Source of the DNA: Chromatiales bacterium
GTDB taxonomy: Bacteria > Pseudomonadota > Gammaproteobacteria > Thiohalospirales > Thiohalospiraceae
Assembly: GCA_026982395.1 (NCBI GenBank)
Contig: JALSHD010000018.1
Coordinates: 1 to 32,665, forward strand
DNA length: 32,665 nucleotides
Direction: 5' to 3'
Part shown: piece after piece, positions 12,159 through 32,665 of the stretch
Layout: each line of letters opens with the position of its first letter
Position numbering within the stretch: the first letter of the stretch is position 1
Notes under the pieces: model-generated
Told to the model about the DNA's origin: nothing
The model's input: the letters and a program-made list of their open reading frames with translations, nothing else
The model's database searches: none
Position numbers and translations under genes: made by a program

Positions 12159-12190
12159 CTTCTGGCTACTTGCCGAGTGGTTACAGGAGT

Positions 12191-12208: not shown

Positions 12209-12261
12209 CCTTGGTGCTATCCGGCTTTGTAACACCGGTTCCGATGAGGGAGTGAGTACGC

Positions 12262-12534: not shown

Positions 12535-12820
12535 CGTGCTTTCTGTTGTGCTGCTGCTTGCCGGGGCGGTTTTCTTTCTGGCGGGGACGCTGGGTTTGTT
12601 ACGTTTTCCCGATGTCTATACTCGCCTGCATGCGCTTACCAAGGCCGACAATGTAGGTCTGGGTCTGATGGTGGCGGGGCTGGTCTTGCAGGCGGGATCA
12701 TGGGGCGAGGTGGGCAAGTTGTTGCTGATCTGGTTGCTGGTGCTGCTCGCCGGGGCCAGTGTTGCCCATCTGATTGCCAGCGGAGCCTTGCAGCGGGGCA
12801 TCCATCTGTGGAAACGCTGA
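12521..12820 (+). CDS. mnhG: Mrp-type antiporter subunit G
   Basis: A 99-residue, three-helix membrane protein of the MnhG/MrpG family with the signature GTLGLLRFPDVYTRLHALTK followed by DNVGLGLMVAGL. ATG 12521 is chosen because GGAGG lies 6 bases before it and the family's first helix starts there. It overlaps mnhF at its 5' end and the next gene at its 3' end. Confidence 0.93.
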   Translation: MTLSNVLSVVLLLAGAVFFLAGTLGLLRFPDVYTRLHALTKADNVGLGLMVAGLVLQAGSWGEVGKLLLIWLLVLLAGASVAHLIASGALQRGIHLWKR

Positions 12821-13770: not shown

Positions 13771-14081
13771 GTAGTGCACTCCTTTATGCTCTGGTGGGCA
13801 CAGGGCTGTTCTCTCTGGGCTTGTACGGCCTGATAGTGCAAGCCCATCTGCTGCGCAAGATTCTGGGGCTGAACATAATGGGCAGCGGAGTTTTCCTGGT
13901 GCTGGTTGCACTGGCGAGGCGCACCGGGGAGGTTCCGCCGGATGCCGTGCCCCATGCCATGGTCATCACCGGTATCGTGGTTGCGATTTCGGCCACGGCG
14001 CTGGCGCTTGCCCTGATGTTGCGGGTGGCGGCGGAAACCGGGCGCGCCGAGCTTCCCGATGATCAGCAGGACTCCCGCTGA
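13767..14081 (+). CDS. mnhC: Mrp-type antiporter subunit C (NuoK-like)
   Basis: A 104-residue, three-helix membrane protein homologous to NuoK. Family marks are LFSLGLYGLIVQAHLLRKIL and GLNIMGSGVFLVLVALA, then PHAMVITGIVVAISATALAL. Overlaps of ATGA upstream and TGATG downstream show translational coupling. Subunit C contributes to the ion path next to subunits A and D. Confidence 0.93.
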   Translation: MSSALLYALVGTGLFSLGLYGLIVQAHLLRKILGLNIMGSGVFLVLVALARRTGEVPPDAVPHAMVITGIVVAISATALALALMLRVAAETGRAELPDDQQDSR

Positions 14082-15547
14082 TGGATGAGCTGATCCCGGG
14101 GTTTCCCTGGGGTATTGCGCTGATCCTGCTGCCATTGGCGGGTGGCATGATCTGTTTCCTTTCGCCGGGGATAGCAAGGGCATCGGGGTTGATTACCCTC
14201 TTCGCCGTTAACCTGTCGGTGGTGGGTCTGGCCTGGCAGATGTTCGGCAACGGCGTCTATCGCCATGCGGTGGGTGGCTGGGATGCCCCGCTGGGGATCG
14301 AGCTGTACGCCGATGGCCTGAGCCTGTCGATGCTTGGGGTGACCGCTCTGGTGGGGCTCGCGGTCAGCTCCTATTCGGCGGCTTACTTCAGGGGCGGCGA
14401 GGCGATCCGGTTCTGGCCACTGTGGTTGTTGTTGCTGGCCGCACTGAATGCCCTGTTTCTGTCGGCCGATATTTTCAATATCTATGTTACCTTCGAGCTG
14501 ATGGGGCTGGCGGCGGTGACGCTGGTGGCACTGGCCGGCGACCGGGATGCGCTGGGCGGGGCCATGCGTTATCTGTTGGCAACGCTGCTGGGGTCGCTGG
14601 CCTATCTCCTTGGCGTGGCGCTGCTTTATCACGGCTTCGGCACTGTGGATATTGCATTGCTTGCCGAACGGGTGGACGCTTCGCCCGTGGTGTGGGCGGC
14701 GTTGGGGCTGATGGGTGCCGGTCTGCTACTCAAGACAGCGGTTTTCCCGTTGCACTTCTGGTTGCCGCCGGCTCATGCCAGCGCCCCGGCGCCGGTAAGT
14801 GCGCTGTTGTCGGCGTTGGTGGTGAAGGCCTCGTTCTACATTCTTTTACGGCTCTGGCTGGAACTGTTCGAACCGCTGGTCGCTGGCCAGGGCGTCCCTG
14901 CCCTGTTGGGGTTGCTCGGTACCGGCGCAGTGCTCTGGGGGTCGGTACAGGCTTTGCGGCAGAGCCGCCTGAAGCTGCTGATTGCCTACTCCACCGTGGC
15001 CCAGATTGGCTATCTGCTGCTGGCTTTTCCCCTGGCCGTAGCCACCGGTGTCACCGCCTGGAACGGAGCGCTGTATCTGGCGCTCTCCCATGCCCTGGCC
15101 AAGGCGGCCATGTTCCTGGCGGCTGGCAATCTGTTGCGATTCGAAGGACATGATCGCATTGCCGATCTGGATCGGGTGGTGCAGCGTCTGCCGCTCACCG
15201 CGAGTGCTTTCGCGTTGGCCGGTGCGAGCATCATGGGGCTGCCTCCAAGCGGTGGTTTCGTCGGCAAGTGGCTGCTTCTTGAAGCCGCGCTTGCCCAGGG
15301 GCGCTGGGATCTGGCGGCGGTGATGATCCTGGGCGGTGTGTTGGCGGCGGGCTATATTTTCAAGGTTCTGGGCTACGCCTTTACCCAGGCCGGTGTGGCG
15401 CACGAGCCGGGACCGGTGCCCGCCCGCATGGAGTGGGCGGCACTGCTGCTCGCCTGCGGTGCCGTCCTGCTGGGTTTCCTGGCGATGCCGCTGTTGTCGC
15501 TGGTGGGCATCGGCGCTCCTTTCGGTAGCGGTGGGGTGGACCCATGA
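14081..15547 (+). CDS. mnhD: Mrp-type antiporter subunit D (NuoN/NuoM-like)
   Basis: A 488-residue protein with about 14 hydrophobic helices, of the proton-conducting membrane transporter family shared with complex I. The key charged residues are intact: Glu139 in FNIYVTFELMGL (helix 5), Lys218 in LLLKTAVFPLHFWLPP (helix 7) and Lys249 in ALVVKAS (helix 8), followed by RLKLLIAYSTVAQIGYLL. These mark it as an active antiporter module. It is the first of three such proteins in the cluster. Confidence 0.93.
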   Translation: MDELIPGFPWGIALILLPLAGGMICFLSPGIARASGLITLFAVNLSVVGLAWQMFGNGVYRHAVGGWDAPLGIELYADGLSLSMLGVTALVGLAVSSYSAAYFRGGEAIRFWPLWLLLLAALNALFLSADIFNIYVTFELMGLAAVTLVALAGDRDALGGAMRYLLATLLGSLAYLLGVALLYHGFGTVDIALLAERVDASPVVWAALGLMGAGLLLKTAVFPLHFWLPPAHASAPAPVSALLSALVVKASFYILLRLWLELFEPLVAGQGVPALLGLLGTGAVLWGSVQALRQSRLKLLIAYSTVAQIGYLLLAFPLAVATGVTAWNGALYLALSHALAKAAMFLAAGNLLRFEGHDRIADLDRVVQRLPLTASAFALAGASIMGLPPSGGFVGKWLLLEAALAQGRWDLAAVMILGGVLAAGYIFKVLGYAFTQAGVAHEPGPVPARMEWAALLLACGAVLLGFLAMPLLSLVGIGAPFGSGGVDP

Positions 15548-17043
15548 GCGCAAACGGCTGGCTGCCCCTGCTGGTAATCCTCAGCTCGCTGCTGCCCGGG
15601 TTGCTCATCTTTGGTCTGGCGGAGGAGCGGGTGCGGACGCGCACGGTGCTCAATCTGACCGGGGCGGTGGTCAAGCTCGTTCTGGTGGGATGGATGTTGT
15701 GGGGCGTCTATAACGGGCACCATTACGAAATGCGGCTGCCCTTGCTGCCCGGGCTGGAGCTGGTGCTCCGGGCCGGTCCGCTGGCGCTTCTGTTTGTCTC
15801 GCTATCAGCGGTTCTCTGGCTGGTGACCACTGTTTATGCTATCGGTTATCTGGAAGGATCGCCTCATCGCAGCCGCTTTTTCGGTTTCTTCAGCCTCTGT
15901 GTCACCGCCACCGTCGGCGTGGCCCTTGCCGGCAATCTGATCACTTTTCTGGTGTTCTACGAGCTGTTGACCCTGACCACCTATCCCCTGGTGGTGCATC
16001 GTGGTACGGAGGTGGCTCGCCGCGCCGGGCAGAGCTATCTGATCTACACCATTTTCGGCGGATCCCTGCTTCTGCTCGGCACGGTGTGGCTCTATGTTCT
16101 GACCGGCACCCTGGAGTTCACTCCGCGGGGGTTTCTCGATACGGTCGCGACCGAGCACCATTCTGCGCTGGTGGTCATCTTTGCCCTGCTGGTCGCGGGG
16201 TTCGGCGTGAAGGCAGCGCTGATACCGCTGCACGGCTGGCTTCCGCAGGCGATGGTTGCCCCGGCGCCGGTCAGCGCGTTGCTGCATGCGGTGGCAGTGG
16301 TGAAGGCAGGAGCATTCGGGATTGTGCGGTTGGTCTATGAGGTGTTCGGGGTGGAGTTTGCCGCCATTCTGGGGGTTACCGGCCCCTTGGCCTGGCTGGC
16401 GGCGGCTACCATAATCTATGGATCGCTGCGTGCCCTGTTTCAGGACAACCTGAAGCGTCGGCTGGCCTATTCCACAGTCAGTCAGGTCTCCTATATTACC
16501 CTGGGCGTCGCCATCGCTGGACCTGTTGCCGCCATCGGTGGTGTGGTGCATCTGGTGCACCAGGGGCTGATGAAGATCACCCTTTTTTTCTGTGCCGGCA
16601 ATCTGGCGGAAACCCTGGGGATCCACAAGATCAGCGAGATGGACGGCGTGGGCAGGCGCATGCCCTGGACCATGGTGGCTTTTACCATCGGTGCCTTCGG
16701 CATGATTGGCGCGCCGCCGGTTGCCGGGTTTGTCAGTAAATGGTATCTCGGTCTGGGGGCTCTGGAGGTGGGCCAGGGATGGGTGGTTATCGTGCTGGCC
16801 GGCAGCAGCCTGCTCAATGCGGCCTATTTTCTGCCGATCCTGTATCGCGCATGGTTTCGCGAGCCGCCACACGTTTGGCCGCAGGAGCGTGATTTTGGCG
16901 GCAAGGAGACCGCCTGGGCGCTGCTGCTTCCATCATTGGCAACAGCCGCGATGGCCTTGGCGGCGGGGCTGATGGCGGCGGGCTCCTACAGCCCGCTGGA
17001 GTGGGCGAAGCTGATCGCGGAGCAGGAGTTCTACCTGAAATGA
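15544..17043 (+). CDS. second antiporter module of the Mrp cluster (NuoM/NuoL-like)
   Basis: A 499-residue proton-conducting transporter-family protein. Conserved charged residues are present: Glu140 in LITFLVFYELLTLTTYPLVV, Lys223 in GFGVKAALIPLHGWLPQAM and Lys254 in HAVAVVKAG. The block LKRRLAYSTVSQVSYITLG and KISEMDGVGRRMP are typical of the MnhD/NuoM branch. The cluster has no full-length MnhA, so this subunit may fill the MrpA N-terminal role or be a second MrpD. It overlaps its neighbours by ATGA on both sides. Confidence 0.9.
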   Translation: MSANGWLPLLVILSSLLPGLLIFGLAEERVRTRTVLNLTGAVVKLVLVGWMLWGVYNGHHYEMRLPLLPGLELVLRAGPLALLFVSLSAVLWLVTTVYAIGYLEGSPHRSRFFGFFSLCVTATVGVALAGNLITFLVFYELLTLTTYPLVVHRGTEVARRAGQSYLIYTIFGGSLLLLGTVWLYVLTGTLEFTPRGFLDTVATEHHSALVVIFALLVAGFGVKAALIPLHGWLPQAMVAPAPVSALLHAVAVVKAGAFGIVRLVYEVFGVEFAAILGVTGPLAWLAAATIIYGSLRALFQDNLKRRLAYSTVSQVSYITLGVAIAGPVAAIGGVVHLVHQGLMKITLFFCAGNLAETLGIHKISEMDGVGRRMPWTMVAFTIGAFGMIGAPPVAGFVSKWYLGLGALEVGQGWVVIVLAGSSLLNAAYFLPILYRAWFREPPHVWPQERDFGGKETAWALLLPSLATAAMALAAGLMAAGSYSPLEWAKLIAEQEFYLK

Positions 17044-18311
17044 ATGCCGTGATTCCCCCCTTGCTGCTCGGGGTTGTCGTGGCCTGGCCGTTGCTGTTGG
17101 CCTTTCCGGCGCTGTATGCCCGCGTTCCCTGGCCCCGCCAGTTGGCTACTGTTCCAGCGCTGTTGCTGGCGGTGCTGCCTGGCGAGGCCAGTCTTGAGCT
17201 GTCCTGGCTGCTGTTCGGAACAGGGTTTGCCATCGACGGGCAAAGCCGCTGGATTCTTGCTACGGCGGTGGCCGTCTGGTTGATGGCGGCGGTGACGGCG
17301 CAACCCGCCAATGAGGGTAATGCCGGCCGATGTACCACCCCGTTTTTCATGCTGACCCTGGGGGGCAATCTGGGCGCCATTCTGGCCACCGATCTGGTGG
17401 GCTTTTTCAGCTTTGCCACCGTGATGGGCTACGGCTTCTACGGGCTGTTAATCCAGGGCAGTGACGAAGCGGCACGCCGCAGCGGGCGTTGTTATCTCCT
17501 GTTTCTGATCGTGGCGGATCTGCTGCTGTTCGAAGCTCTGCTGCTTGCCGCATTCACTGCGGAGGATCTGCGCTATGAAACGGTGGGTGAAGCGATGGTC
17601 GGAGCGTCGTCCATGTCACTCTATCTCTGGCTGGTACTGATCGGTTTTATGCTCAAGGCCGGGGTCTGGCCTCTCCACTGGTGGTTGACGGCGGCTTTTT
17701 GCACCTCGCCCCGAACAACGGCTTTGCTGCTGGGTGGCGTACCGGTTGCCATGGGGCTGCTCGGGTTGCTGCGCTGGCTGCCGCTTGGAGAATACGCCGC
17801 TGGCGGTTCGGTGATGCTCATCCAGGTGATGGGGGCGGGAGCAGTGCTATACGCGGTTTTTGCCCGGGGTTCCGTAAAAACATTGCCTGCCCGGGTTGCC
17901 GTCTCGGTTACCGGACTGTTTGTTGTGGCGCTGGGGAGTGGGCTGGCCTATCCGGCGGTGTGGCGGCAGTATGAATTTATTGGCTATCCCTTTATCGCCT
18001 CGCTGGGTATTTTGCTGGCGGGACTGGGTTTCACCACCGGCCGGATGAAGGGCGCGCGTTACATGTCCACCTTTGCATCGCGGCGCCTGGGGGCGTTACA
18101 GCCGGAGGTTGGGCGGTGGATTGAGATCGTCTATCAATGGGCTGGAGACAGATTTTCCGGACTCCACTCCCTTTGGCGCGTGTCATGGTTGAAGGCGGTA
18201 AAATGGCGCATCCCGGACTGGCGAAATCTGCGGACTCTTGTAGAGGGATGGAGCGCCACGATTACCCTTTTCGTGTTGTTGGGACTGGCGCTGGCCTGGC
18301 TGGCAGGATGA
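17040..18311 (+). CDS. third, divergent antiporter-like subunit of the Mrp cluster
   Basis: A 423-residue membrane protein related to the other two modules but shorter and diverged. The helix-7 Lys is kept (Lys206 in GFMLKAGVWPLHWWL). The helix-5 Glu is absent: no Asp or Glu occurs at 119-141, and Thr127 aligns with Glu140 of the second module. The helix-8 Lys is also lost (Ala237 region, GGVPVAMG). The C-terminal ~100 residues are amphipathic and end in one hydrophobic helix, somewhat like the lateral helix and anchor of NuoL. ATG 17040 is in an ATGA overlap with the previous stop. It may be structural and not ion-pumping. Family assignment is by motif and position. Confidence 0.75.
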   Translation: MNAVIPPLLLGVVVAWPLLLAFPALYARVPWPRQLATVPALLLAVLPGEASLELSWLLFGTGFAIDGQSRWILATAVAVWLMAAVTAQPANEGNAGRCTTPFFMLTLGGNLGAILATDLVGFFSFATVMGYGFYGLLIQGSDEAARRSGRCYLLFLIVADLLLFEALLLAAFTAEDLRYETVGEAMVGASSMSLYLWLVLIGFMLKAGVWPLHWWLTAAFCTSPRTTALLLGGVPVAMGLLGLLRWLPLGEYAAGGSVMLIQVMGAGAVLYAVFARGSVKTLPARVAVSVTGLFVVALGSGLAYPAVWRQYEFIGYPFIASLGILLAGLGFTTGRMKGARYMSTFASRRLGALQPEVGRWIEIVYQWAGDRFSGLHSLWRVSWLKAVKWRIPDWRNLRTLVEGWSATITLFVLLGLALAWLAG

Positions 18312-21722: not shown

Positions 21723-22121
21723 ATGGACACAACCGCAACCTTGAAATATCGTCCGCTGTGGCTGGCTATTGGCTGGGGGCTGGTAGCGCTGGTCGTCTAT
21801 CTCTCCCTTACCCCCAGGCCGGTAGAGTTGCAGATCAGCCATGGTGACAAATATTCTCACCTGCTGGCTTATTTTGTATTGATGGGGTGGTTCCAGCAGC
21901 TCTATTCAACCCGGTTATCCCGGCTGTTGTTGCTGGGAGTGTTTGTCGGCCTGGGTATCGGGATAGAATATCTGCAGGGAATGAGTGGCATGCGTTTTTT
22001 CGATGTGGCGGATATGGCGGCCAATGCACTGGGCGCGCTGCTCGCCTGGCTGCTGGGGTGGTTTGGATTCGCATCATTGCTGTTCCGGCTTGAGGAGCGG
22101 TTGATGTTGAAACGGGGCTAG
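21723..22121 (+). CDS. VanZ-like family membrane protein
   Basis: A 132-residue protein with four hydrophobic segments. The VanZ-like pattern is visible: SLTPRPVELQISHGDKYSHL, then GIGIEYLQGMSGMRFFDVAD and MAANALGALLAWLLG. Function of this short form is unknown; VanZ itself is linked to teicoplanin resistance, but most chromosomal members are unassigned. ATG 21723 lies two bases after the uppP stop; the longer in-frame version from 21693 would overlap uppP. Its stop overlaps the stop of the convergent comEC gene. Confidence 0.85.
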   Translation: MDTTATLKYRPLWLAIGWGLVALVVYLSLTPRPVELQISHGDKYSHLLAYFVLMGWFQQLYSTRLSRLLLLGVFVGLGIGIEYLQGMSGMRFFDVADMAANALGALLAWLLGWFGFASLLFRLEERLMLKRG

Positions 22122-24403
22122 TTATTCCAGTAGCGTCGTGCAGCAAGCCGGTATGACTCCGGTGCAGACAACCTGTCCTTGCCCAGTCTGAAGCGGATGG
22201 CGCCGTGGTGCGCCGAATCCAGCATCTGCGTGCCGTTTGCCAGATAGCGCCCCACCACATTTGGGTGAGGGTGATGAAAGCGGTTGCGGTAGCCTGCCGG
22301 GAACAGCACATAGTCCGGACTGACCGCATCGATGAACTGCTGTGAGGAGGATGTCTTGCTGCCGTGGTGGGGGGCTACCATGATTGCAGCGGCCAGAGCA
22401 GAAGGGTTTTCATCCACCAGCCTTCGCTCTGCCCGCTGTTCGATATCCCCGGTCAACAGGAGAGAGCTGGCGGCAGTCTCTACCTTGAGTACACATGAAG
22501 CGTTGTTTCCCTCTACTGTGCTTTGCGGGGTGGGATGCAGCACAGAAAACCGTACCCCGTCCCAGCTCCATGACTGGCCTTGCCGACATAGCTCCGTATT
22601 TCCCGGCAGTCGCTCCGGGACGGTGGTCAGCAGGCGCCTGGCGGGATATTCTTGCAGCAATGAATCTGCTCCACCGATATGGTCATTGTCACCGTGGCCG
22701 ACTATCAGCATATCCAGTGAGGTGATGCCTTCCCGGCGCAGAAAGGGGATCACAACGGCCTGTCCGGTATCGAAATGGTCACTGAATTTTGGTCCGGTGT
22801 CGTATACCAGAGTATGGTTTCTGGTCTGGACTACAGCGGCCAGTCCCTGACCTACATCCAGCAGGGTAAACCAGGCCTCTCCCTGTTGCGGACGTTCGGG
22901 GCTGGTCAGAACCAGTGGCAGCAGCCAGCCGGCACCGATCCAGCGGGCCGGGACACCGCGGGGAGCCAGCATCCAGAGAATGCCGATAACAGCAGCGAGC
23001 AGACTCCACGGTGGCACCTCGGCAGGCAGTTGCCACTGAGCGAACCGCAGCTCTGCCAACCACTGTAGAACCGGCCACAGCCAGCCCATCAGACTGGCTG
23101 CCTGAAGCAGCAGCCAGCCGCCCAGCGGAGGGTAGAGCAACAGGCAGATAGCGCCAAGCAGGGTAAGGGGTACTACGGACAGGCTTACCCAGGGAACGGC
23201 GATAAGGTTGGCCAGCGGCGAGAATAGTGGAGCCTGCTGGAAAGAGAATGCCAGCAAGGGCAACAGGCCCAGACTAACTACCCACTGCACTCGCCCCCAT
23301 TGCCTCCAGCCGCCTTTTTTGTGCAGCCGTCCCCCCAGTCCATACAAAATGATCGCTACAGCTGCAAAAGAGAGCCAGAACCCTACCGTTATCACTGCCA
23401 TGGGGTCGATTAACAGTACGCCACCCAAGGCAAGGGCCAAGCCATGACTGGGGCTGATCTGCCGTTGCAGGAACAAAGCAATCATGACCACTCCAACCAT
23501 GATCAATGCTCGTTGGGTGGGTATGGAAAAGCCGGCCAGAGCGGCATATCCACAGGCGGCAAGCAGGGCGATGACAGCAGCAGCCCGGGGGGCGGGAACA
23601 AGCAGCGGTGCCCGCCAGAGCAGGGGCCAGATCCAGCGTCCCAGGAAAAAGGCCATTCCGGCAACCAGCCCGATATGCAGACCGGATATCGCCATTAAAT
23701 GGTTGGTCCCGGTGCCGGTCAATATCTCCCACTGCTCGTTGTGGATCCTGCTGCGATCACCTATTGCCAGGGCGGTAATCAGGCCGGAAAAGGGGTGATT
23801 TTCCAGATGGTGGTCAATCTGCTGCCGAAGATCCTGGCGCAGGCGATCAACGGGGCGGGAGTATTGCTCCGATGCCAGAAAAGTTTGGAGAGCTTTGGTG
23901 CGCACATAACCGGTGGCGTTGATCCGTCGTTGAAACAGCCACTTTTCATAATCGAAACCGCCGGGGTTCATAAACCCATGTGGCCGTTTGAGGCGTACGG
24001 TCAACCGCCAGCGATCGCCAACGGAGAGCTCTGGCGCTTTGCCATACCAGCTCAACAACACCCGGCGGGGGGTGGAGAACTCTTGCTCTCCATCGCCCGG
24101 GGTATCCAGAAGAAATTCAAACCGTGCACGGCGAGAGTTCCGTTCCACCAGTGAAGCGATGGTTCCCTCCACTTCGACATCCACCCCTTCCAGCTGTTTG
24201 GGGAGAGTATTGCCGAGCATCCATCCGCCATGAAGAAAAGCCCACAGAAATCCGCCCAGAGTTGCCATCGGCAGCCGGGCCATCTGCCACCGCCATGCCA
24301 GCGGCAGGAGAGACGCAGTGAACAGCCAGTAGAGGCCGGGCAGTTCAGCACACTGCTGAAACAGGACTATCCCGAACAGGAAAAAAAGTATCGCCAGACG
24401 CAT
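22118..24403 (-). CDS. comEC: ComEC/Rec2-family DNA uptake channel protein
   Basis: A 761-residue inner-membrane protein thought to carry single-stranded DNA into the cytoplasm in natural transformation. Order of parts: N-terminal hydrophobic and DUF4131 region (1 to about 190), the Competence membrane domain with ALAIGDRSRIHNEQWEILTG and NHLMAISGLHIGLVAGMAFF (about 205-490), and a C-terminal metallo-beta-lactamase-like domain with DVGQGLAAVVQT, GHGDNDHIGG and LLLTGDIE. Metal-ligand residues of the last domain look intact. Length fits the family. No other competence genes are in the window. The dispersed repeat copy 2 begins 29 bases upstream of its start. Confidence 0.95.
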   Translation of the reverse strand: MRLAILFFLFGIVLFQQCAELPGLYWLFTASLLPLAWRWQMARLPMATLGGFLWAFLHGGWMLGNTLPKQLEGVDVEVEGTIASLVERNSRRARFEFLLDTPGDGEQEFSTPRRVLLSWYGKAPELSVGDRWRLTVRLKRPHGFMNPGGFDYEKWLFQRRINATGYVRTKALQTFLASEQYSRPVDRLRQDLRQQIDHHLENHPFSGLITALAIGDRSRIHNEQWEILTGTGTNHLMAISGLHIGLVAGMAFFLGRWIWPLLWRAPLLVPAPRAAAVIALLAACGYAALAGFSIPTQRALIMVGVVMIALFLQRQISPSHGLALALGGVLLIDPMAVITVGFWLSFAAVAIILYGLGGRLHKKGGWRQWGRVQWVVSLGLLPLLAFSFQQAPLFSPLANLIAVPWVSLSVVPLTLLGAICLLLYPPLGGWLLLQAASLMGWLWPVLQWLAELRFAQWQLPAEVPPWSLLAAVIGILWMLAPRGVPARWIGAGWLLPLVLTSPERPQQGEAWFTLLDVGQGLAAVVQTRNHTLVYDTGPKFSDHFDTGQAVVIPFLRREGITSLDMLIVGHGDNDHIGGADSLLQEYPARRLLTTVPERLPGNTELCRQGQSWSWDGVRFSVLHPTPQSTVEGNNASCVLKVETAASSLLLTGDIEQRAERRLVDENPSALAAAIMVAPHHGSKTSSSQQFIDAVSPDYVLFPAGYRNRFHHPHPNVVGRYLANGTQMLDSAHHGAIRFRLGKDRLSAPESYRLAARRYWNN

Positions 24404-24431
24404 GCGTTGTTATCAAACCCGGAGCGGTCAG

Positions 24432-24643
24432 GTTATAGATGGGCACCACCAAAAAACTTTTTGCAATAACGGCGTCAGCTCCGTGCGTGAACCCTCAAGT
24501 ATTCTCTATACAGCAGTTTCCGGCAATAGCTCCATGCATTGCTCTCGATGCTGACTTCCTGCTTCGTTATACCTCGTCCCTCCATGGACTCGTACCTCCT
24601 GCATCCATGCCGGTCGTGTGCGCGGAGATTCCTTGTTCTTGCC
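24432..24643 (-). repeat. dispersed repeat, copy 2
   Basis: Second copy of the repeat seen at 273-478, in the same orientation. The best core is 24529-24610. Read on the minus strand it has an open frame containing RYESMEGRG, ITKQE and ESNAW, ending HARS at a stop in the same place as copy 1; the segment after ESNAW differs by 9 bases, which keeps frame. It occupies most of the 300-base gap (24404-24703) between comEC and cbbR, in which I see no other feature. Confidence 0.7.
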
Positions 24644-24703
24644 GAAAAAATAGTGCCTATTATGTTGTATTTATTGCGAGCGGAGTGGACGGTTCTTCAG
24701 GTT

Positions 24704-25690
24704 TTATCGCGCTTTTTTCTTTTTCTGGCAGGGTGGGGCCTCTGTCTGCTCCTCCGGGACATTTTTTAAAATGTTTCTCCCGTCCTCCAGGAGGAAGTCC
24801 AGAAAGGTGCGCGCTACCAGTGGCAGCTGCTTTCCTTTCGGATAGGCGGCATACCAGCGCCGCTTCAGAGGAAACCCTTCCACATCCAGTACAGCAATAT
24901 GGTCGCCCGCCAGCTCCAGCCGCAAACTGTGCAGTGACAGAACGGAAAGACCCAGACCTCCCATGACGGCATGCTTGATTGCCTCGCTGCTGCCCAGATT
25001 CATATAGGGTTTTATCTGTAACCCTCTATCGGCAAACAGCTGGTCGATAGCCATACGTGTCCCGGAGCCCGGCTCCCGTATCAGAAAATTCTCCTCCAAC
25101 AGTGACTGCAAAGGGATGGATTGTTTTTTGGTCAATGGATGCGATGGCGGGGCGACCACCACCAGATCATTGTCCAGAAAAGCGGTTGCCTCAACCTCCA
25201 GGCTTTCCGGTATCTTGCCCATGATCAGCAAATCGTCTTCGTTTGAACGCAGACGTTGCAGCATTTTTTCCCGGTTGGTTACTACCAGGCACGGCTCCAC
25301 ATCCGGGTAGCGACGCACGAATGCGCCGAGCAGGTGGGGTATGAAATATTTGGCAGTACTGACGACAGAGATACGCAATTCGCCTTTCACTTCTCCCCTG
25401 AGTGAAGTCATGTCATCATCGAGCTGCCCCAGGCGCTCGAGGATGTCCTGCGCTGCGGCCAGGATTTTCCGCCCCGCTGCGGTGGGATGCAGCTGTTTGC
25501 CAATCTGCTCGAAAAGCGGCAGATCCACGGTATCACTGAGTTTTTTGATCTGCATCCAGACAGTAGGCTGGGTAAGGTGCAATGCCCTGGCTGCGCGTGT
25601 ATAGCCCCCAAGCCGAGCAACAGCCTCCATGATTTGCAGCTGGCGCAATGAAGCATGTCGAATCAGGGAGTCGGCCTTCAATTCTTTCAT
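24704..25690 (-). CDS. cbbR: CbbR-type LysR-family transcription regulator
   Basis: A 328-residue LysR-type regulator. The helix-turn-helix is at the N-terminus (SLRQLQIMEAVARLGGYTRA, then ARALHLTQPTVWMQIKKLSD). The effector domain follows, with LRISVVSTAKYFIPHLLGAF, REPGSGTRMAIDQLF and HAVMGGLGLSVLSLHSL as in CbbR/RbcR proteins. It is divergent from the sbtA-cbbL side, the standard place for the activator of Calvin-cycle operons. The start at 25690 is preferred; a TTG at 25717 in the same frame would overlap the palindrome in the promoter region. The C-terminal tail is lysine-rich (KKKKAR), which is unusual but not clearly important. Confidence 0.92.
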   Translation of the reverse strand: MKELKADSLIRHASLRQLQIMEAVARLGGYTRAARALHLTQPTVWMQIKKLSDTVDLPLFEQIGKQLHPTAAGRKILAAAQDILERLGQLDDDMTSLRGEVKGELRISVVSTAKYFIPHLLGAFVRRYPDVEPCLVVTNREKMLQRLRSNEDDLLIMGKIPESLEVEATAFLDNDLVVVAPPSHPLTKKQSIPLQSLLEENFLIREPGSGTRMAIDQLFADRGLQIKPYMNLGSSEAIKHAVMGGLGLSVLSLHSLRLELAGDHIAVLDVEGFPLKRRWYAAYPKGKQLPLVARTFLDFLLEDGRNILKNVPEEQTEAPPCQKKKKAR

Positions 25691-25993
25691 AGACCACGTT
25701 CTATATTGATAATACAAATTATCGATTTTTATATAGTAGCAAACTTGCTTATTATCGCCAATGTGCGGATGGAGCGTTTTGCTAATGAGTCCGAACCCCT
25801 GTTACGGAATATGTATGGACAACTTAATCGGTAAAAATTCGCGTGAACAGCTATTGTGTTCCGGGCTTGTGACGGGTGTAATAGCGTCAAAATTCAGGGC
25901 TTGCATTGTGTGACCTGTGTAAATTTATGGGGGAAGCTCTGTTACATCATGAGCCAACGAACATCCAGGAAGTTATAAGAGGCTACCTTTTAT
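25691..25993. promoter_or_regulatory. divergent regulatory region between cbbR and sbtA
   Basis: About 303 bases without a gene. It holds a perfect palindrome, GATAAT-ACAA-ATTATC (25708-25723); a pattern TTA-N7-TTA (25719-25731) matching the loose CbbR half-site TNA-N7-TNA; and GAACA-N7-TGTTC (25845-25861). The first two lie just upstream of cbbR and could serve autoregulation. The TNA-N7-TNA pattern is common by chance, so only the palindromes carry weight. I could not fix promoter boxes for sbtA. Confidence 0.45.
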
Positions 25994-26944
25994 ATGACAT
26001 CATCAATAGACCCCATAGTACTGTTTTTTCTTCTCGGGTTGATTGCCGGGCTGTTGCGTTCGGAGTTGCGCTTGCCGCAGGCCATTTACGAGTTTCTCAC
26101 CGTGCTGCTGTTGCTGGCCATCGGTTTGAAAGGTGGTATAGAGCTGGCCAAGCAGCCCTTTGGCGAACTGTTGATGCCGCTGCTGGCGGTAATCATTATG
26201 GGTACCATGTTACCGCTGGTCGCCTATCCCATACTCTCTCTTGTTGGCCGTTTCAAGCGGGCTGATGCTGCATCCATCGCCGCCCATTACGGCTCGGTGA
26301 GTGTTGGTACCTATGCGGTGGCGATCGCCTATCTTGGCGCCCAGCAGATAGACTATGAAGCCTATATGCCCCTGTTTGTGGTTGTGCTGGAGGTACCTGC
26401 GATTCTGGTAGGTATCGTCATGGCACGGGGTGTTTCCCGTGATACGGACTGGGGGAAACTGGCTCACGAGGTTTTTCTGGGCAAGGGGGTTGTATTGCTC
26501 ATGGGGGGGTTGTTCATAGGCTGGATTGCCGGCCCCGAGGGAGTGGAGCCGATTGCGCCGATGTTTTTCGACCTGTTCAAGGGGGTGCTTGCCCTGTTTC
26601 TGCTTGAGATGGGGTTAATTGCGGCCAGCCAGATAGGGGGGTTGCGGCGTTACGGTCTCTTCATCGTAGGCTTCGGAATTCTTTTTCCCCTGTTTGCGGC
26701 AACAATCGGTACCGTGCTTGGCTGGATGCTGGGTTTGTCAACCGGCGGTACCATCCTGCTGGCGACGCTGGCAGCGAGCGCCTCTTATATCGCTGTGCCG
26801 GCGGCCATGCGTCTTACTGTGCCGGAAGCCAATCCGACACTGTCAATCAGTGCTTCACTTGGTGTAACCTTCCCCTTTAATATTCTGGTGGGTATTCCCT
26901 TGTATCATCAGTTCGTTAACCTGATTCAAAATCTTGGAGGATGA
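25994..26944 (+). CDS. sbtA: SbtA-type sodium-dependent bicarbonate transporter
   Basis: A 316-residue membrane protein with about ten hydrophobic helices in two similar halves. Family marks are LAIGLKGGIELA, AHYGSVSVGTYAVAIAYLGA, and ASASYIAVPAAMRLTVPEAN followed by PTLSISASLGVTFPFNI. SbtA imports bicarbonate with sodium at high affinity in cyanobacteria, and homologues sit near carboxysome genes in chemoautotrophs. The substrate here is inferred from family and context. It is followed by the PII-like gene in near overlap. The weak AGAGG upstream leaves a wide 11-base spacing. Confidence 0.92.
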   Translation: MTSSIDPIVLFFLLGLIAGLLRSELRLPQAIYEFLTVLLLLAIGLKGGIELAKQPFGELLMPLLAVIIMGTMLPLVAYPILSLVGRFKRADAASIAAHYGSVSVGTYAVAIAYLGAQQIDYEAYMPLFVVVLEVPAILVGIVMARGVSRDTDWGKLAHEVFLGKGVVLLMGGLFIGWIAGPEGVEPIAPMFFDLFKGVLALFLLEMGLIAASQIGGLRRYGLFIVGFGILFPLFAATIGTVLGWMLGLSTGGTILLATLAASASYIAVPAAMRLTVPEANPTLSISASLGVTFPFNILVGIPLYHQFVNLIQNLGG

Positions 26945-26949
26945 AGCCT

Positions 26950-27252
26950 ATGCATTTAGAGACCCGGAAGTTGCTCACCATAACAACAGAGGCTGCACTG
27001 GAGCAGAGTGTGTTGGAAGATCTGGATCGCCTGGGAGCTCATGGTTATACCATTGTCGATGCCCGGGGCAGAGGGCACCGGGGATCGCGCAATGCCAGCT
27101 GGGATCTTACCAGCAACATCCGTATCGAGGTTGTGTGTCCGGAGCAGGTGGCCGAGGCCATCGTTACACATATCAGGGAACATTATTATGCTAACTACGC
27201 AATGATTGTGTTTTTGAGCGATGTAGATGTGCTGCGCCCGGAGAAATTCTAG
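26950..27252 (+). CDS. sbtB: SbtB/CPII-like PII-family regulator of bicarbonate uptake
   Basis: A 100-residue PII-like protein. The block LGAHGYTIVDARGRGHRGSR (about 29-48) and NIRIEVVCPEQVAEAIVTHI match the SbtB/CPII subgroup. SbtB-type proteins bind adenine nucleotides and regulate SbtA; CPII of a carboxysome locus responds to ADP/AMP and bicarbonate. ATG 26950 is chosen over the in-frame ATG 26941 because GGAGG at 26936-26940 directly abuts the latter but stands 9 bases from the former. The gene sits between sbtA and cbbL, as expected for a gate linking transport to the carboxysome. The protein ends at RPEKF and lacks the C-terminal Cys pair (CGPEGC) known from some cyanobacterial SbtB. 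Confidence 0.9.
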   Translation: MHLETRKLLTITTEAALEQSVLEDLDRLGAHGYTIVDARGRGHRGSRNASWDLTSNIRIEVVCPEQVAEAIVTHIREHYYANYAMIVFLSDVDVLRPEKF

Positions 27253-27303
27253 GTGGCGTGGAGGTGAGGGCATTGAGGGGGGCGGATTGTCCGCAACCAG
27301 CGT

Positions 27304-27332
27304 TTTAAAGATAAAAGACTATCCTGTATATA
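27304..27332 (+). promoter_or_regulatory. candidate cbbL promoter
   Basis: TTTAAA (27304-27309) and TATATA (27327-27332) are 17 bases apart, about 115 bases before the cbbL start. An alternative TTGACT at 27362-27367 lacks a good -10. A TNA-N7-TNA pattern (27337-27349) could be a CbbR half-site. The assignment is tentative. Confidence 0.3.
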
Positions 27333-27381
27333 GCATTTATCTAGTATCATCTGTTTTTGAATTGACTTACCATGTTAAATC

Positions 27382-27407
27382 GTGTTGCTTTGGCAACGCA
27401 GTTTTTT
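27382..27407 (+). terminator. terminator-like hairpin in the cbbL leader
   Basis: GTGTTGC (27382-27388) and GCAACGC (27393-27399) form a 7-bp stem with one T-G pair and a TTTG loop, followed within two bases by six T (27402-27407). The form is that of an intrinsic terminator. It ends 41 bases before the cbbL ATG and 24 bases before the AAGGAG site. It could end sbtAB transcripts, attenuate cbbL, or stabilise a processed 5' end. Confidence 0.55.
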
Positions 27408-27448
27408 AAAGTTTAACCGATCACAATTGCTAAGGAGATTAGTGCAAA

Positions 27449-28867
27449 ATGGCTAAGAAATACGAAGCGGGCGTCAAGGACTACCGCGAAACCTATTGGC
27501 AGCCGGACTACGTTCCGCTTGATTCCGATATTCTGGCGTGTTTCAAGATTACTCCGCAGCCTGGGGTTGATCGTGAAGAGGCAGCAGCGGCGGTGGCTGC
27601 CGAATCTTCGACTGGCACCTGGACCACGGTATGGACCGACCTGTTGACCGATATGGATTACTATCGGGGGCGGGCCTACCATATTGAAGACGTGCCTGGT
27701 GACGATACCTGCTTCTACACCTTTATCGCATATCCGATCGACCTCTTTGAAGAAAACTCGGTTGTCAACGTGTTTACTTCACTGGTTGGTAATGTTTTCG
27801 GTTTCAAGGCCATCCGCGCCTTGCGCCTGGAAGATGTGCGCTTCTCCCTGGCTTATATCAAGACCTGTAATGGACCACCACATGGCATTCAGGTTGAGCG
27901 TGACAAGCTGAACAAGTACGGCCGCCCGATGCTGGGTTGCACTATCAAGCCGAAACTGGGTTTGTCTGCAAAAAACTACGGTCGTGCGGTTTATGAGTGT
28001 CTGCGTGGCGGACTGGATTTCACCAAGGATGACGAAAATGTCAACTCGCAGCCCTTTATGCGCTGGCGTGATCGCTTTCTGTTTGTTCAGGATGCCATCG
28101 AAACAGCCCAGGCAGAAACTGGCGAGCGCAAGGGTCACTACCTGAACGTGACCGCACCCTCCCCCGAGGAGATGTACGAGCGTGCCGAGTTTGCCAAGGA
28201 GCTGGGAACCCCGATTATCATGCACGACTTCCTGACCGGCGGTTTCTGTGCCAATACCGGTTTGGCTCGTTGGTGTCAGAAAAACGGGGTGCTGCTACAT
28301 ATCCACCGCGCCATGCACGCGGTGCTCGACCGCAATCCGCATCACGGTATCCATTTCCGGGTTCTCACCAAGGCACTGCGGCTTTCTGGCGGTGATCATC
28401 TGCACTCCGGCACCGTCGTCGGCAAGCTGGAAGGTGATCGCGCTGCAACGCTGGGCTGGGTTGATTTGATGCGTGAATCATTCGTTCCGGAAGATCGTAG
28501 CCGGGGTATCTTCTTCGATCAGGACTGGGGTTCCATGCCTGGTGTCATGCCGGTTGCTTCAGGTGGTATTCACGTATGGCACATGCCTGCACTGGTGGCT
28601 ATTTTCGGTGACGATTCTGTATTGCAGTTCGGTGGAGGCACCCTTGGACACCCATGGGGTAACGCCGCAGGCGCCGCAGCGAACCGGGTGGCTCTCGAAG
28701 CCTGTGTGGAAGCCCGTAATCGTGGTGTTGATGTGGAGCGCGAAGGCAAGGCCGTGCTTACTGAAGCGGCCAAGCATAGCCCCGAGTTGAAGGTTGCCAT
28801 GGAGACATGGAAAGAGATCAAGTTTGAGTTTGATACCGTGGATAAGCTGGATCAAGTCAATCGCTAA
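27449..28867 (+). CDS. cbbL: RuBisCO large subunit, form IA
   Basis: A 472-residue large subunit of ribulose-1,5-bisphosphate carboxylase/oxygenase, which fixes CO2 inside the carboxysome. Active-site regions are intact: [16 protein letters not shown] (Lys167 and Lys169), [11 protein letters not shown] (carbamylated Lys193, Asp195, Glu196), HIHRAMHAV, and [17 protein letters not shown]. The N-terminus and the block [19 protein letters not shown] are typical of proteobacterial form IA. The position directly before cbbS and csoS2 marks it as the carboxysomal type. AAGGAGA stands 10-11 bases before the ATG. Confidence 0.99.
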
Positions 28868-28893
28868 TCCGAACATAGAGGAGCAATATAGAA

Positions 28894-29226
28894 ATGGCTG
28901 AAATACAAGACTACAAGTCCACGCCAAAGTTCGAAACATTTTCATATCTGCCGGAGATGACGCCGGATCAGACACGAGCACACATTGCCTACATTATCCA
29001 GCAAGGCTGGAATCCGGCGATTGAGCATGTTGAGGTGGATCGTGCCTTCAACTACTTCTGGTATATGTGGAAGTTGCCGATGTTTGGCGAGCAGTCGGTG
29101 GACCGGGTTCTGGCTGAACTGGAAGCGTGTCACCGTGAATACCCTAGCCACCATGTTCGTTTGATTGGCTACGATAACTTCACACAAAGTCAGGGTCTGG
29201 CATTCGTTGTATTCCGGGGACGCTGA
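28894..29226 (+). CDS. cbbS: RuBisCO small subunit, form IA
   Basis: A 110-residue small subunit. Family marks are [46 protein letters not shown] and [18 protein letters not shown] with only small changes. It forms the L8S8 enzyme with CbbL and, at the CbbL-CbbS junction, is part of the surface that CsoS2 N-peptides bind in carboxysomes. It follows cbbL by 26 bases with GAGGAG upstream. Confidence 0.98.
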
Positions 29227-29248
29227 TTTTATTTGTGGTCGGGGTTTC

Positions 29249-29266
29249 GCTTTTTGTAGAAAAGGC
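29249..29266 (+). other. hairpin between cbbS and csoS2
   Basis: GCTTTTT (29249-29255) and AAAAGGC (29260-29266) pair as a 7-bp stem with one T-G pair and a GTAG loop, 40 bases before the csoS2 ATG. There is no T-run after it. A stem-loop in this gap could lower downstream expression relative to cbbLS, which is needed in far greater amount. Confidence 0.4.
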
Positions 29267-29305
29267 TAGATGTTACTACATTTCTAAGGATCCCAGGAAT
29301 TCAAA

Positions 29306-32300
29306 ATGACAGATCTATTGCATACATCCGGGCTGTCGGGACGGGAGCTGGCGCGTGCAAGAAGGCGCGCAATGTCCCGTACTGGCGCAGGTATGGTTGG
29401 TCGCGGCGAATCCAGTACCGTTGCAAACGCTGTACAGCGCTCTCCAGCCGGGTCGCATGCTTCGAGGGAAGTGGCAGAAGCATCGGCCAGGCCCCTTACT
29501 GGCAAGGCGCTTGCCAAAATGCGCCGGGCCCGGCTTTCCGCAGGAGGGAAGAGCGCATTGGCTTCTTCCGGTATGGCGGCTGGCTCTGCTGAGCCGGCGG
29601 CTGTAGCGGTTGATGAAGTTTCCGCCCGCCAAGGGGAGAGAGGCCGGCGGAAGGAGGAGGCGTGCTGTGATGCATGCGCAAACTCCTTGCCATGTGAGGG
29701 CGCTAGTATGAGCGAATCTCCGGAAGAGTCCAAAGAGTGCGAAGAAGCGGTGCTTGATACGTTGTGCGAAACACTGGAGAGTGCTCCAGCTGGTCTGGGG
29801 CCGGTTTCGTCGAGTGTCCGCGCATACTGTCGCACTCGCCGTAGCCAGCTATCCAGGCAAGGCAAGCAGGCGTTATCTGCCGGAAGAAAGGAAAGGGGCC
29901 GGTCGACTGGGTCTGTACCCGCAGCACGTCGGGCTCCCTCTTCACCGTCAGGCAGAGCCCTGGCGAAGGCGAAGCGACTGGAGCGCTGCCGCTTTGGTCA
30001 ACCTACCAGTATGACCTGCCGCCCCAGCGGCCGGGTTCGTCCCGGCAGGGTTGCGCCGGAAGAGCCGGTGGATGTTGTATCGCGACACACGGAAGAGGTT
30101 AGTGCTGAAGATGTGCTGAATGAGCTGTGTGAAGTTGTCGTGAACAATCCGGATAGTTCGGAACAGAATTCCAGCATACGGGCATATTGTCGCGAGCGAC
30201 GTAACCAGCTCTCCAGGAAGGGGAAACTGGCCTTGCCTGGCAAGGCAAAGAAACAGGCAATCGAGTCTCTGGTTCGTCAGAGTGCCGGTTCTTCCCTGAC
30301 GGGCCGGGCCGTGGCAAAACTGCACCGGGAGAGCCGTTGCCAGTTTGGTCGTGGTGACAGCTCGGGGTGCCGCCCCAGTGGGCGGGTTCGTCCTGCTAGG
30401 GCGTCGTCCAAGGTGGAGGTTGGTACCACATTGTCAGGTCAGGCGGTAACGGGTACCCAGGTAGAGCAGACAGAAAAGATTACCGGTATTGAGTCAGGAG
30501 CCTGCCGGGTCGTTACCGGTACGGAATATCTGGGCGTTGAACAGTTCGAGAGCTTTTGCTCCAGTGTTCCCGAGCCTGCCGTAGCCAAAGTGGGCCTGAG
30601 CAAAACCAGCCATGGGCAGTTAATGACGGGCCTTGCTGTAGCGGATTCGGAAAAGGTTACCGGCGACGAAGCAGGTGGCTGCAAACGCATTACCGGAAGC
30701 GAATACCTGGGCGTCGAGCATTTTGAAGCAGCTTGCAATTCTGCCAGCGGAATCAACCGGACTCAGGATAAAGTTGTCGCGGACCGTTCCGGAAAAGATT
30801 TGCGTATCACCGGAGTTGATGAGGCTCGTGACAATGATGTTACCGGGCTGGAGTCCGGAGCCGGTATCAAAATTACGGGCACAGAGTACGTCATCAACAA
30901 GGAGCAGGGGGAAGCCCCTGCCAAGGTTCAGGAAAGCCATACGGCTGCCGGAGTGGCGGTTTCGGTTTCAGGGGGAGACGTTTCCCGCGTTGATATTACC
31001 GGTGATGAACAGGATGCCTGTCGCCGTGTTACCGGTACGGAATATATTTCCAGCGAGCGCTTTCAGGCGACCTGTGGTGCAAGACCCGAGCGTCCGGCAC
31101 CCAAAGTGGGTATTGACACCAGCCAGGGAGGAATGAGCGTTACCGGTAATCTGGTTGGCCGCAGCGAAAAGGTTACCGGCAACGAACCCGGCTCCTGCCG
31201 GCGTGTGACAGGCAGTCAATATGGAGCCTCTTCCGATGCGGGTTTGTGCGACAACCGTTCGGACAAGGTACACCACATGAGTACTTTGCATGGACGGCCG
31301 CTGAGCGGCACAGAGGTTGGTTCCTCTCCAAAGTTGACCGGCGATGACCGGGGCGGCTGCCTGGATGTTACCGGTACGGAATATCTCGGGCAGGAGCATT
31401 TCAGGCAAACCTGCTCGCAGACGCCGATCCCTGGCACTGAAAAGACGGGAGTTGGCTATACCTGGAATAATCAGCCGGTGAGTGGAACCCGGGTGGGTCC
31501 TGCTCAAAATGTAACAGGTGATGAACAGGGTGTTTGCGAACCGGTTACCGGCAGCGACTATATCGGCCGGGATCAGGTGGGGGAGTTTTGTGCCCCGGCA
31601 GCGGTGCAGGACAGCGATCGGCGCCAACGCCACGATACCTCGGTCATGTCTATATCCGGGATCCAGCCAGGTCCGGACGAACGGATAGCCGGTAATTTTC
31701 AGCGGGGTGGTTGCCAAAATATTACCGGGACACCTTATCAGGGACCGGGCAGTCAGTGTACCGTAACCGGCGAGAACCGCCAGCCGCGGCAAATGCACCA
31801 CCTGGTTCGGGCGGTCGGTACGCCGCAGGTTCCGATAGAGCCGAAGCAACGGGGCGGCAGCGGGTCAGCAGAGTCCTATCAAGGTAGCTTTTCCGTGATG
31901 TCACCAGCGAGAACTGCGTGGCAGGGTCGGGAGCGTCAGCCGGTCCATAGCAGCGTATACGGCGTGGGAGGTTCCATCACCGGTGTGGTTAACAAGGCGG
32001 AAGGTGTTATTTCCGGAACTCCGGAGTTTCGTCACCCCCAGGAGTTGAACGCAGCGCCCGCAGTGACAGTGGAACCTGATGATGCCCAGCGGGAAAGAAT
32101 TACCGGAGAGGGCCGGGAGGCCGGTACCAGAATTACCGGGGATGACTGGTCACGCAGTAACTTTGTCACCGGAACAGAAGGAATGTTTTCCGCCAAGCGC
32201 AACCAGACAATGCGGGGCGCGTCCGTGGAGCGAAACAACATTGGCGCCCATGCACTGAAAGATCGTGAGCGGGTGCAGGCTCCCGTTTCCAGGGTGACGG

Positions 32301-32362
32301 GTGGCAGCGGTAATGTCAGTTCATCCTCTATGGTTACCTTATCGGGCGGCGCAAGTGGTTAA
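29306..32362 (+). CDS. csoS2: CsoS2, carboxysome assembly scaffold protein
   Basis: A 1018-residue, largely disordered repeat protein that links RuBisCO to the alpha-carboxysome shell. N-domain (1 to about 365): basic RuBisCO-binding peptides such as GRELARARRRAMSRTG (12-27) and GKALAKMRRARLSAGGKSAL, then two long similar units (about 147-246 and 268-363), each with RAYCRxRRxQLSRxGKxAL, GRAxAK, CxFG and CRPSGRVRP. M-domain (about 378-785): seven repeats of VTG...KVTG...C..VTGTEYLG...F...C. The third (about 503-556) lacks both Cys. C-domain (about 785-1018): further ITG/VTG repeats and the terminal shell-binding tail ending TLSGGASG. AGGAA stands about 8 bases before the ATG. In some species a -1 frameshift gives a short form; I found no classic slippery heptamer here. 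Confidence 0.97.
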   Translation: MTDLLHTSGLSGRELARARRRAMSRTGAGMVGRGESSTVANAVQRSPAGSHASREVAEASARPLTGKALAKMRRARLSAGGKSALASSGMAAGSAEPAAVAVDEVSARQGERGRRKEEACCDACANSLPCEGASMSESPEESKECEEAVLDTLCETLESAPAGLGPVSSSVRAYCRTRRSQLSRQGKQALSAGRKERGRSTGSVPAARRAPSSPSGRALAKAKRLERCRFGQPTSMTCRPSGRVRPGRVAPEEPVDVVSRHTEEVSAEDVLNELCEVVVNNPDSSEQNSSIRAYCRERRNQLSRKGKLALPGKAKKQAIESLVRQSAGSSLTGRAVAKLHRESRCQFGRGDSSGCRPSGRVRPARASSKVEVGTTLSGQAVTGTQVEQTEKITGIESGACRVVTGTEYLGVEQFESFCSSVPEPAVAKVGLSKTSHGQLMTGLAVADSEKVTGDEAGGCKRITGSEYLGVEHFEAACNSASGINRTQDKVVADRSGKDLRITGVDEARDNDVTGLESGAGIKITGTEYVINKEQGEAPAKVQESHTAAGVAVSVSGGDVSRVDITGDEQDACRRVTGTEYISSERFQATCGARPERPAPKVGIDTSQGGMSVTGNLVGRSEKVTGNEPGSCRRVTGSQYGASSDAGLCDNRSDKVHHMSTLHGRPLSGTEVGSSPKLTGDDRGGCLDVTGTEYLGQEHFRQTCSQTPIPGTEKTGVGYTWNNQPVSGTRVGPAQNVTGDEQGVCEPVTGSDYIGRDQVGEFCAPAAVQDSDRRQRHDTSVMSISGIQPGPDERIAGNFQRGGCQNITGTPYQGPGSQCTVTGENRQPRQMHHLVRAVGTPQVPIEPKQRGGSGSAESYQGSFSVMSPARTAWQGRERQPVHSSVYGVGGSITGVVNKAEGVISGTPEFRHPQELNAAPAVTVEPDDAQRERITGEGREAGTRITGDDWSRSNFVTGTEGMFSAKRNQTMRGASVERNNIGAHALKDRERVQAPVSRVTGGSGNVSSSSMVTLSGGASG

Positions 32363-32415
32363 TCGTGTTGACTGGTGCAACATCAAGGTAACGATGAACG
32401 ATTATCGATCAGGCC

Positions 32416-32665
32416 ATGAACACCAGAAACGCATATAGAAGAACAGCGGCTAGCGGTTCTCATCGTTATATGCAGGCTCCGATCGGTCTGGCGCAGCAGC
32501 AAGCGGCGGTGAATCGTGAGATGGAGTCTGTAAATGGCCGGAATACAGCCATATCTCCATCAACGTCGTCTCCAGCGCTGGCTTGCGACACGTTACCCCA
32601 TCGTGCGTGTCGGCACCCGTTGGCCGATCTGCACGCCAATGCGGAACTGGCGCACTGCGAGCAGA
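32416..32665 (+). CDS. csoSCA: CsoSCA, carboxysomal carbonic anhydrase (N-terminal part, cut by window end)
   Basis: An open frame of 83 codons runs to the right edge. It begins MNTRNAYRRTAASGSHRYMQ and contains LACDTLPHRACRHPLADLHA, which resembles the N-terminal region of CsoSCA (CsoS3) from other alpha-carboxysome operons. CsoSCA converts bicarbonate to CO2 inside the shell; its N-terminal tail is known to bind RuBisCO. The place directly after csoS2 is the standard order. No strong ribosome-binding site is seen (AGG close to the ATG). An earlier ATG at 32394 is out of frame. The zinc domain lies beyond the window. Confidence 0.88.
   Translation, partial: MNTRNAYRRTAASGSHRYMQAPIGLAQQQAAVNREMESVNGRNTAISPSTSSPALACDTLPHRACRHPLADLHANAELAHCEQ

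Follow-up and report, generated by a model that had tools for sequence, protein, structure and literature searches.

A stem-loop at the predicted start of the cbbL message, behind a candidate CbbR promoter, in a Chromatiales bacterium

The leaders of the ompA, papA and bla messages of Escherichia coli are 5'-terminal stem-loops that protect the mRNA. The sections of PMC3997798 drawn on here report that a 5' hairpin, by impeding RppH, can lend stability to the bla mRNA, and also that 5'-end sequestration leaves the stability of the rpsO mRNA and of T7-transcribed lacZ mRNA unchanged. The locus analysed here would share with the ompA, papA and engineered bla leaders a stem-loop, predicted to begin 0–2 nt from the 5' end, and after it a U-rich leader of little structure that runs to the ribosome-binding site. 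In respect to the promoters of RuBisCO genes, the part of PMC2942843 used here describes the CbbR sites in cbbR–cbbL intergenic regions as being of the T-N11-A/TNA-N7-TNA type, and the CbbR-controlled cbb promoters of Acidithiobacillus ferrooxidans combine a T-N11-A-type dyad with a -10 element at fixed spacing and cbbL downstream. A further comparison is offered by Rho-independent and premature terminators, with which the locus has in common a sense-oriented stem-loop with T6 upstream of a gene; the portion of the attenuator survey PMC2965389 cited here describes regulatory terminators as less stable. Also, article titles cited in PMC2758277 point to a 5' RNA structure in the 5' UTR of Chlamydomonas chloroplast rbcL and to a proposed control of the lifetime of this RuBisCO message, in a different genetic system, for which a relation to the present locus would be speculative. 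In the openly accessible literature that we have searched, neither a terminator nor a 5' stem-loop is described ahead of cbbL, which does not prove its absence: stem-loops or rho-independent stops have been predicted in RuBisCO gene clusters (PMC2942843 and PMC5506194, as far as their main text goes), and since these predictions sit in figures and supplements a cbbL-leader stem-loop may be among them.

We have analysed a hairpin upstream of cbbL in a stretch of 32,665 nt of DNA from a Chromatiales bacterium, hereafter the window (Table 1). As the first-pass annotation had described, a stem-loop with six T precedes cbbL: GTGTTGC and GCAACGC pair around a TTTG loop into a stem of 7 bp, one of them a G-U pair, AG (27400–27401) stands between stem and T6 run, and 41 bases separate the last T from the cbbL ATG. 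The same annotation rightly held that no full promoter fits between the hairpin and the ribosome-binding site, as only 24 nt are left between the T6 run and the Shine-Dalgarno sequence. The hairpin belongs to an intergenic region of 196 nt, from the sbtB stop codon (27250–27252) to the cbbL ATG, and cbbS and csoS2 come after cbbL. For cbbR, the CbbR model NF045990 is the top NCBIfam match, with a score under its curated cut-off. Elsewhere in the window, 7885–9411 encodes a SulP-family transporter and 11670–18311 is a cluster of membrane genes, of which 17001–18311 resembles NADH dehydrogenase/Mrp antiporter subunits; the transporter and the cluster are possibly further inorganic-carbon uptake systems. 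The 121-nt region around the hairpin is not unusually structured (z = 0.59; 147 of 200 shuffles fold equally well or better). The core palindrome GTTGC-N4-GCAAC occurs at just 5 places in the 2.72-Mb genome, versus 2 forward matches for the reversed control, and a dispersed repeat family was thus ruled out.

Table 1. Positions in the window of the genes and of the observed and predicted elements around cbbL.
Feature	Position	Strand	Basis or remark
cbbR, LysR-type regulator	24704..25717	-	NCBIfam NF045990, E 7.3e-71; Pfam LysR domains
Predicted CbbR-type promoter facing sbtA	25684..25755	+	model score 21.7
sbtA, Na+-dependent bicarbonate transporter family	25994..26944	+	Pfam Sbt_1, E 6e-119
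sbtB, P-II-like protein	26941..27252	+	Pfam P-II, E 1e-25
Predicted CbbR-type cbbL promoter	27302..27373	+	72-nt model match, score 17.9
CbbR recognition-like dyad AAAGATAAAAGACTAT	27307..27322	+	window aligned to 60 relatives
Predicted -10 TACCAT	27368..27373	+	promoter model
Predicted transcription start	27380..27382	+	promoter geometry, 7-9 nt after the -10
Hairpin, 7-bp stem, TTTG loop	27382..27399	+	predicted ~+1 to +18 of the cbbL mRNA
T6 run, AG between stem and run	27402..27407	+	sequence; no counterpart in 87 other cbbL loci at the cut-off applied
Shine-Dalgarno AAGGAG of cbbL	27432..27437	+	sequence
cbbL, RuBisCO large subunit	27449..28867	+	NF003252, E 1.4e-239

The comparison was based on 88 cbbL loci, comprising the best 80 of at least 588 confirmed relatives and 8 loci from genomes of the same order other than that of the window; leaders were compared in 87 (L066 has no upstream sequence), and the copies of the window itself (L001, L002) are excluded from the relatives' counts. 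Direct conservation of the intergenic DNA is limited, as in the comparison with 20 relatives significant similarity is confined to the beginning of cbbL and the intergenic matches are short (E ≥ 0.07), and a generic sigma-70 scan of 27253–27448 returned no promoter-like site. Alignment of the leaders evidences a common layout, with a dyad close to ATAGA-N5-TCTAT (exactly so in many relatives), then ATAG/AAAA, TTATTTATG, and the -10 about 12 nt further on. From this layout we derived a 72-nt model covering the CbbR dyad and the -10, built on 60 relatives and refined on 87 with the window excluded. It has two strong matches in the window, one facing sbtA and one before cbbL, the rest of the window scoring at most 2.7 on both strands. 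The score of the cbbL match was reached by none of 5000 shuffles and at none of 1,252,268 positions on both strands of 60 stretches (~630 kb) of the same genome, where the top score was 14.1; the unrefined model from the 60 relatives also gave a clear cbbL match (0 of 2000 shuffles). Of eight further loci that had no part in the training (L154–L161), the six scanned (L154–L159) gave scores before cbbL of 26.9, 25.7, 15.7, 41.5, 21.7 and 30.7, the second coming from a locus (L155) closely similar to training locus L026.

The cbbL candidate has a recognition dyad, an activation half and a -10 at conserved spacing; as read from the alignment, the spacing of its dyad, ATAG and -10 is the same as in L003, of the same genus, and 30 bases of the 72 are identical to the window in L003 and 36 in L016. 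Its -10 agrees with TATAAT at 4 of 6 positions. Two earlier descriptions were replaced once the recognition dyad became visible: a hand-made pattern with the -10 at 27345–27350, which is outside the four best model matches in the region, and a first 32-nt model with the -10 at 27375–27380, 7 bases downstream, which would put the RNA start inside the stem and whose score of 5.6 was reached by 14% of shuffles (2% when restricted to -110 to -90). The dyad layout agrees with the CbbR sites in the cited part of PMC2942843; unlike the cbbR–cbbL promoters described there, the one in the window lies between sbtB and cbbL, and sbtAB separates it from cbbR. From this layout we infer that the predicted promoter binds CbbR and drives cbbL.

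The position of this promoter bears directly on the hairpin. Transcription normally starts about 7–9 nt after the -10 element, and with a -10 that ends at 27373 the RNA should thus begin at the foot of the hairpin, 27382 being the first purine of the predicted interval as well as the position where the stem opens. Most probably, then, the hairpin starts at the predicted transcription start. The offset of 9 nt between -10 and hairpin is equal in L003 and L016. In the latter, 2861–2932 is a cbb promoter match with a 5' stem at the window's offset and without the T run. Facing sbtA, a leader of ~230 nt (25756–25993) lies between the promoter match and the ATG.

We have then asked the same of the relatives' leaders, taking as a measure the probability that any of the first 3 nt is paired inside a 36-nt segment counted from a start 9 nt after the -10 end. 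This measure was picked after a stricter test, in which a stem of at least 5 bp starting 6–12 nt after the -10 was found in 8 of 74 loci against ~5% expected; likewise, the energy of the best hairpin after the promoter was hardly enriched (-2.6 versus -2.2, 66 loci). Loci with a promoter score below 10 or an over-short leader were dropped, leaving 79 of the 87, of which 74 had downstream controls. Mean 5' pairing was 0.604 against 0.473 in dinucleotide shuffles (79 relatives, p = 0.0005) and 0.623 against 0.444 in downstream segments (74 relatives, p = 0.0002), p-values that are optimistic because the loci share ancestry. Upon removal of similar leaders the difference persisted, at 0.582 versus 0.461 for shuffles (68 loci, p = 0.003) and 0.587 versus 0.457 for downstream segments (65 loci, p = 0.005). 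Over the seven offsets considered, the excess is seen at +7 to +10 (p 0.04, 0.001, 0.0002 and 0.003), with a peak at +9, and is absent over downstream controls at +5 and +6.

Closer to the window the stem recurs at the same place: at +7, 5' pairing is at least 0.83 in all five loci of the genus, the window included, and in 8 of 9 of the family, a count in which L007 and L010 are one genome. The 5'-nucleotide pairing probability of the window itself is 1.00 for starts 27380–27382, a 5'-end pairing value matched by 0.6% of 500 shuffles. The 5' sequences of the relatives' leaders differ, and position alone is common to them. Two loci of the same genus (L004, L005) have CGCC-N8-GGCG 5' stems with different loops, and in both a second, common hairpin lies closer to the start codon. 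Against the recurrence, the 5' stem is absent from L009 of the same family and from two close CbbL relatives (L013, L015), 5' pairing in L016 is ordinary with respect to its own shuffles (rank 0.38), and in L006 it drops to 0.52 at +9. Altogether, these results hint, modestly, at a tendency of cbbL messages to have a stem-loop at their 5' end.

Our preferred reading of the feature is an ordinary 5'-terminal stem-loop, preceded by a predicted CbbR promoter and followed by a private T run of uncertain effect. The complete proposal, in which a cbbL message made from a CbbR promoter opens with the hairpin as its 5'-terminal stem-loop and is protected by it, is one to which we give about even credence. 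A CbbR-dependent promoter would start the RNA in the predicted interval, and the message would open with the stem-loop, in its first 18 nt, followed by the U-rich AGUUUUUUAAAGUUUAACC; in the predicted leader fold the ribosome-binding site is in a weak 5-bp stem. The paired 5' end would slow pyrophosphate removal by RppH and the 5'-end-dependent attack of RNase E, and would thus give a longer-lived RuBisCO message. Protection leaves the T6 run unaccounted for; the run may be a lineage-specific extra, in that polymerases arriving from sbtAB may partly stop at the hairpin and U run, and a partial stop would help to separate two CbbR-driven units, sbtAB and cbbL. Unlike the ompA, papA and bla leaders, as covered in the cited sections of PMC3997798, the stem of the window precedes T6, and protection is here a prediction. 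Of the outcomes suggested by the first-pass annotation, a stabilising 5' end is the one that fits best, with an origin in initiation and not in processing. The annotation had also held that transcription into cbbL must pass through the hairpin: a polymerase from the sbtA promoter, unless halted earlier, does transcribe it, but read-through need not be the sole feed of cbbL given the predicted promoter.

The gene order in which this arrangement occurs is itself rare. A cbbR divergent from cbbL, at most 450 nt apart, is found in 61 of the 88 loci (best 80 of at least 588 relatives plus 8), and within the same set L016 alone has both sbtA and sbtB immediately before cbbL. The stretch available for that locus reaches ~1.4 kb upstream of sbtA and holds no CbbR match and no second promoter match of at least 10. 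In L047 a weak SbtB-like match alone is upstream of cbbL; in L017, L028, L045 and L070 an SbtB-like gene, in two of them with sbtA, comes first, with a cbbR of opposite orientation between it and cbbL (in L028 and L070 the order is sbtAB, an opposite CbbR-like gene, cbbL). In a genome of the same genus (G004) cbbR adjoins cbbL (L003) and sbtAB is on a separate contig (L094), and in G075 the order is cbbR–sbtAB, a second and opposite cbbR, and cbbL (L092, L158), with a CbbR-type promoter match on both units. Orders of this kind, in G075, L028 and L070, are a likely ancestor of that in the window, which could have derived from them had the second cbbR been lost.

The main rival is that the hairpin is an intrinsic terminator which ends the sbtAB unit and stops most arriving polymerases, cbbL being read from its own abutting promoter; we hold this to be rather improbable, and it can coexist with 5' protection. 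The annotation had seen in the hairpin the form of an intrinsic terminator, and as to shape this stands. When the intergenic region was dinucleotide-shuffled 3000 times, 3 of the shuffles contained a strict shape, defined post hoc as a stem of at least 7 bp with at least 4 G-C pairs and T6 within 2 nt, and there are 17 cases in 663 kb, that of the window included. Of the 16 other counts, 6 lie at convergent gene ends (two sites being counted on both strands) and 2 between codirectional genes; the 2-nt gap recurs in 4 of these 8. The remainder comprise an intergenic antisense case, 3 counts at the edges of contigs and 4 within genes. These placements depend on a crude longest-ORF rule, used also for the 274-kb sample below, which misreads the left neighbour in the window and calls the hairpin divergent or a 5' leader only; per the annotated genes, the hairpin sits between codirectional genes. 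Moreover, the stretch from sbtB to the cbbL promoter contains no further terminator-like site in a loose scan.

As to strength the terminator reading fares worse. The d'Aubenton-Carafa-type score of the hairpin is -45.8, within the range of coding-sequence background, because AG splits the stem from the T run and the stem is weak (-7.9 kcal/mol): it is not a stable G+C-rich stem directly abutting a U tract, and only a definition of shape that tolerates a 2-nt gap includes it. In a 274-kb sample, scores of at least 0 number 6 in 7.6 kb of convergent-end strand sequence versus 8 in 470 kb of genic sequence, and this clustering indicates that the organism uses intrinsic terminators, of which the cbbL hairpin is atypical. 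A tRNA gene at 560–633 (window ~524–633, minus strand) is followed by a canonical intrinsic terminator with a score of 21.4, which offers a natural positive control for the shape of terminators in the same genome. Also, RNA from the cbbL promoter would encounter the same signal, and in model read-through RNAs the stem probability varies from 0.008 to 0.998 with the assumed ends. The terminator-like character is not conserved: of the 88 loci, only the window has in the last 150 nt before cbbL a hairpin at a cut-off of -4 kcal/mol with at least 5 T within 2 nt, and L016, with the same sbtAB–cbbL order, does not have it; in L015 the stem before a T8 run is weaker (-3.2) and falls short of the cut-off. 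Downstream of sbtB in 15 other loci the window's stem is found in none, and a run of at least T4 after foldable sequence in 7. Weak or partial termination at the hairpin may nonetheless occur, since the exact shape is rare and the other cases are often at gene ends, and the partial separation from sbtAB that the annotation proposed would then be a side effect.

A second alternative, which we regard as unlikely, is that hairpin and T run are functionless and the leader is the plain start of a message. It draws on the number of loose terminator-like sites in 22000–32665, which shows no excess (9 versus 10.1 ± 3.0 in shuffles), and on the 36 of 79 promoter-bearing relatives with 5' pairing below 0.7. 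Against chance stand the rarity of the strict shape and of the window's 5' pairing in shuffled sequence, and the recurrence of the stem at the same position in the genus.

Still less probable, indeed very doubtful, is that the hairpin is an attenuator of cbbL transcription, with some signal, CO2 status for instance, modulating termination at T6, an outcome that the first-pass annotation had suggested for RuBisCO. The element is sense-oriented and terminator-like, is closer to cbbL than to sbtB and lies within 300 nt, a position that passes the distance filter of the survey PMC2965389 as given in the part cited. However, if the predicted promoter is right, only ~0–2 nt of RNA precede the stem, and a start at the stem base leaves no leader for a sensor, a leader peptide or an antiterminator, which makes attenuation unlikely. 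In fact, the search for an alternative fold that the annotation had recommended gave a divided answer: in 27253–27500 the perfect Watson-Crick complements to either arm, G-U pairs excluded, are no longer than 5 nt (at 27293 and 27300), but in a model RNA covering 27200–27407 other pairings nearly fully displace the stem (0.008), so that an alternative fold may form in sbtAB read-through RNA. In the Rfam 15 scan of the window a tRNA alone exceeded the gathering score, leaving no match at the region. Unlike the terminators of PMC2965389, as described in the cited portion, this hairpin has a 2-nt gap and a weak stem, is unconserved upstream of orthologous genes and would have no room for a sensor. 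Finally, that a long sbtAB–cbbL RNA is cut just ahead of the hairpin, which then shields the new 5' end, would suit three codirectional genes with no strong terminator between them but is needless given the predicted promoter, and we consider it extremely improbable.

Taken together with the relatives, the 5'-terminal stem-loop reading extends to a joint one, which we put forward tentatively and as more of a long shot: across proteobacteria, cbbL messages from CbbR promoters would tend to open with a stem-loop placed by the promoter, and in the lineage of the window this stem would have gained a U run and double as the boundary terminator of sbtAB. If this is true, it is the position of the stem and not its sequence that is preserved, as a general device prolonging the life of a very abundant message, and sbtAB directly upstream is the setting in which the stem would gain a U run. 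The focus thereby moves from a CO2-sensing attenuator to the initiation and 5'-end protection of the RuBisCO/carboxysome message. Trimming of the leader would remove the stem, which is relevant to moving carboxysome operons between hosts. If the excess of 5' pairing holds with mapped starts, it would reveal a simple and reused way for autotrophs to raise RuBisCO mRNA levels.
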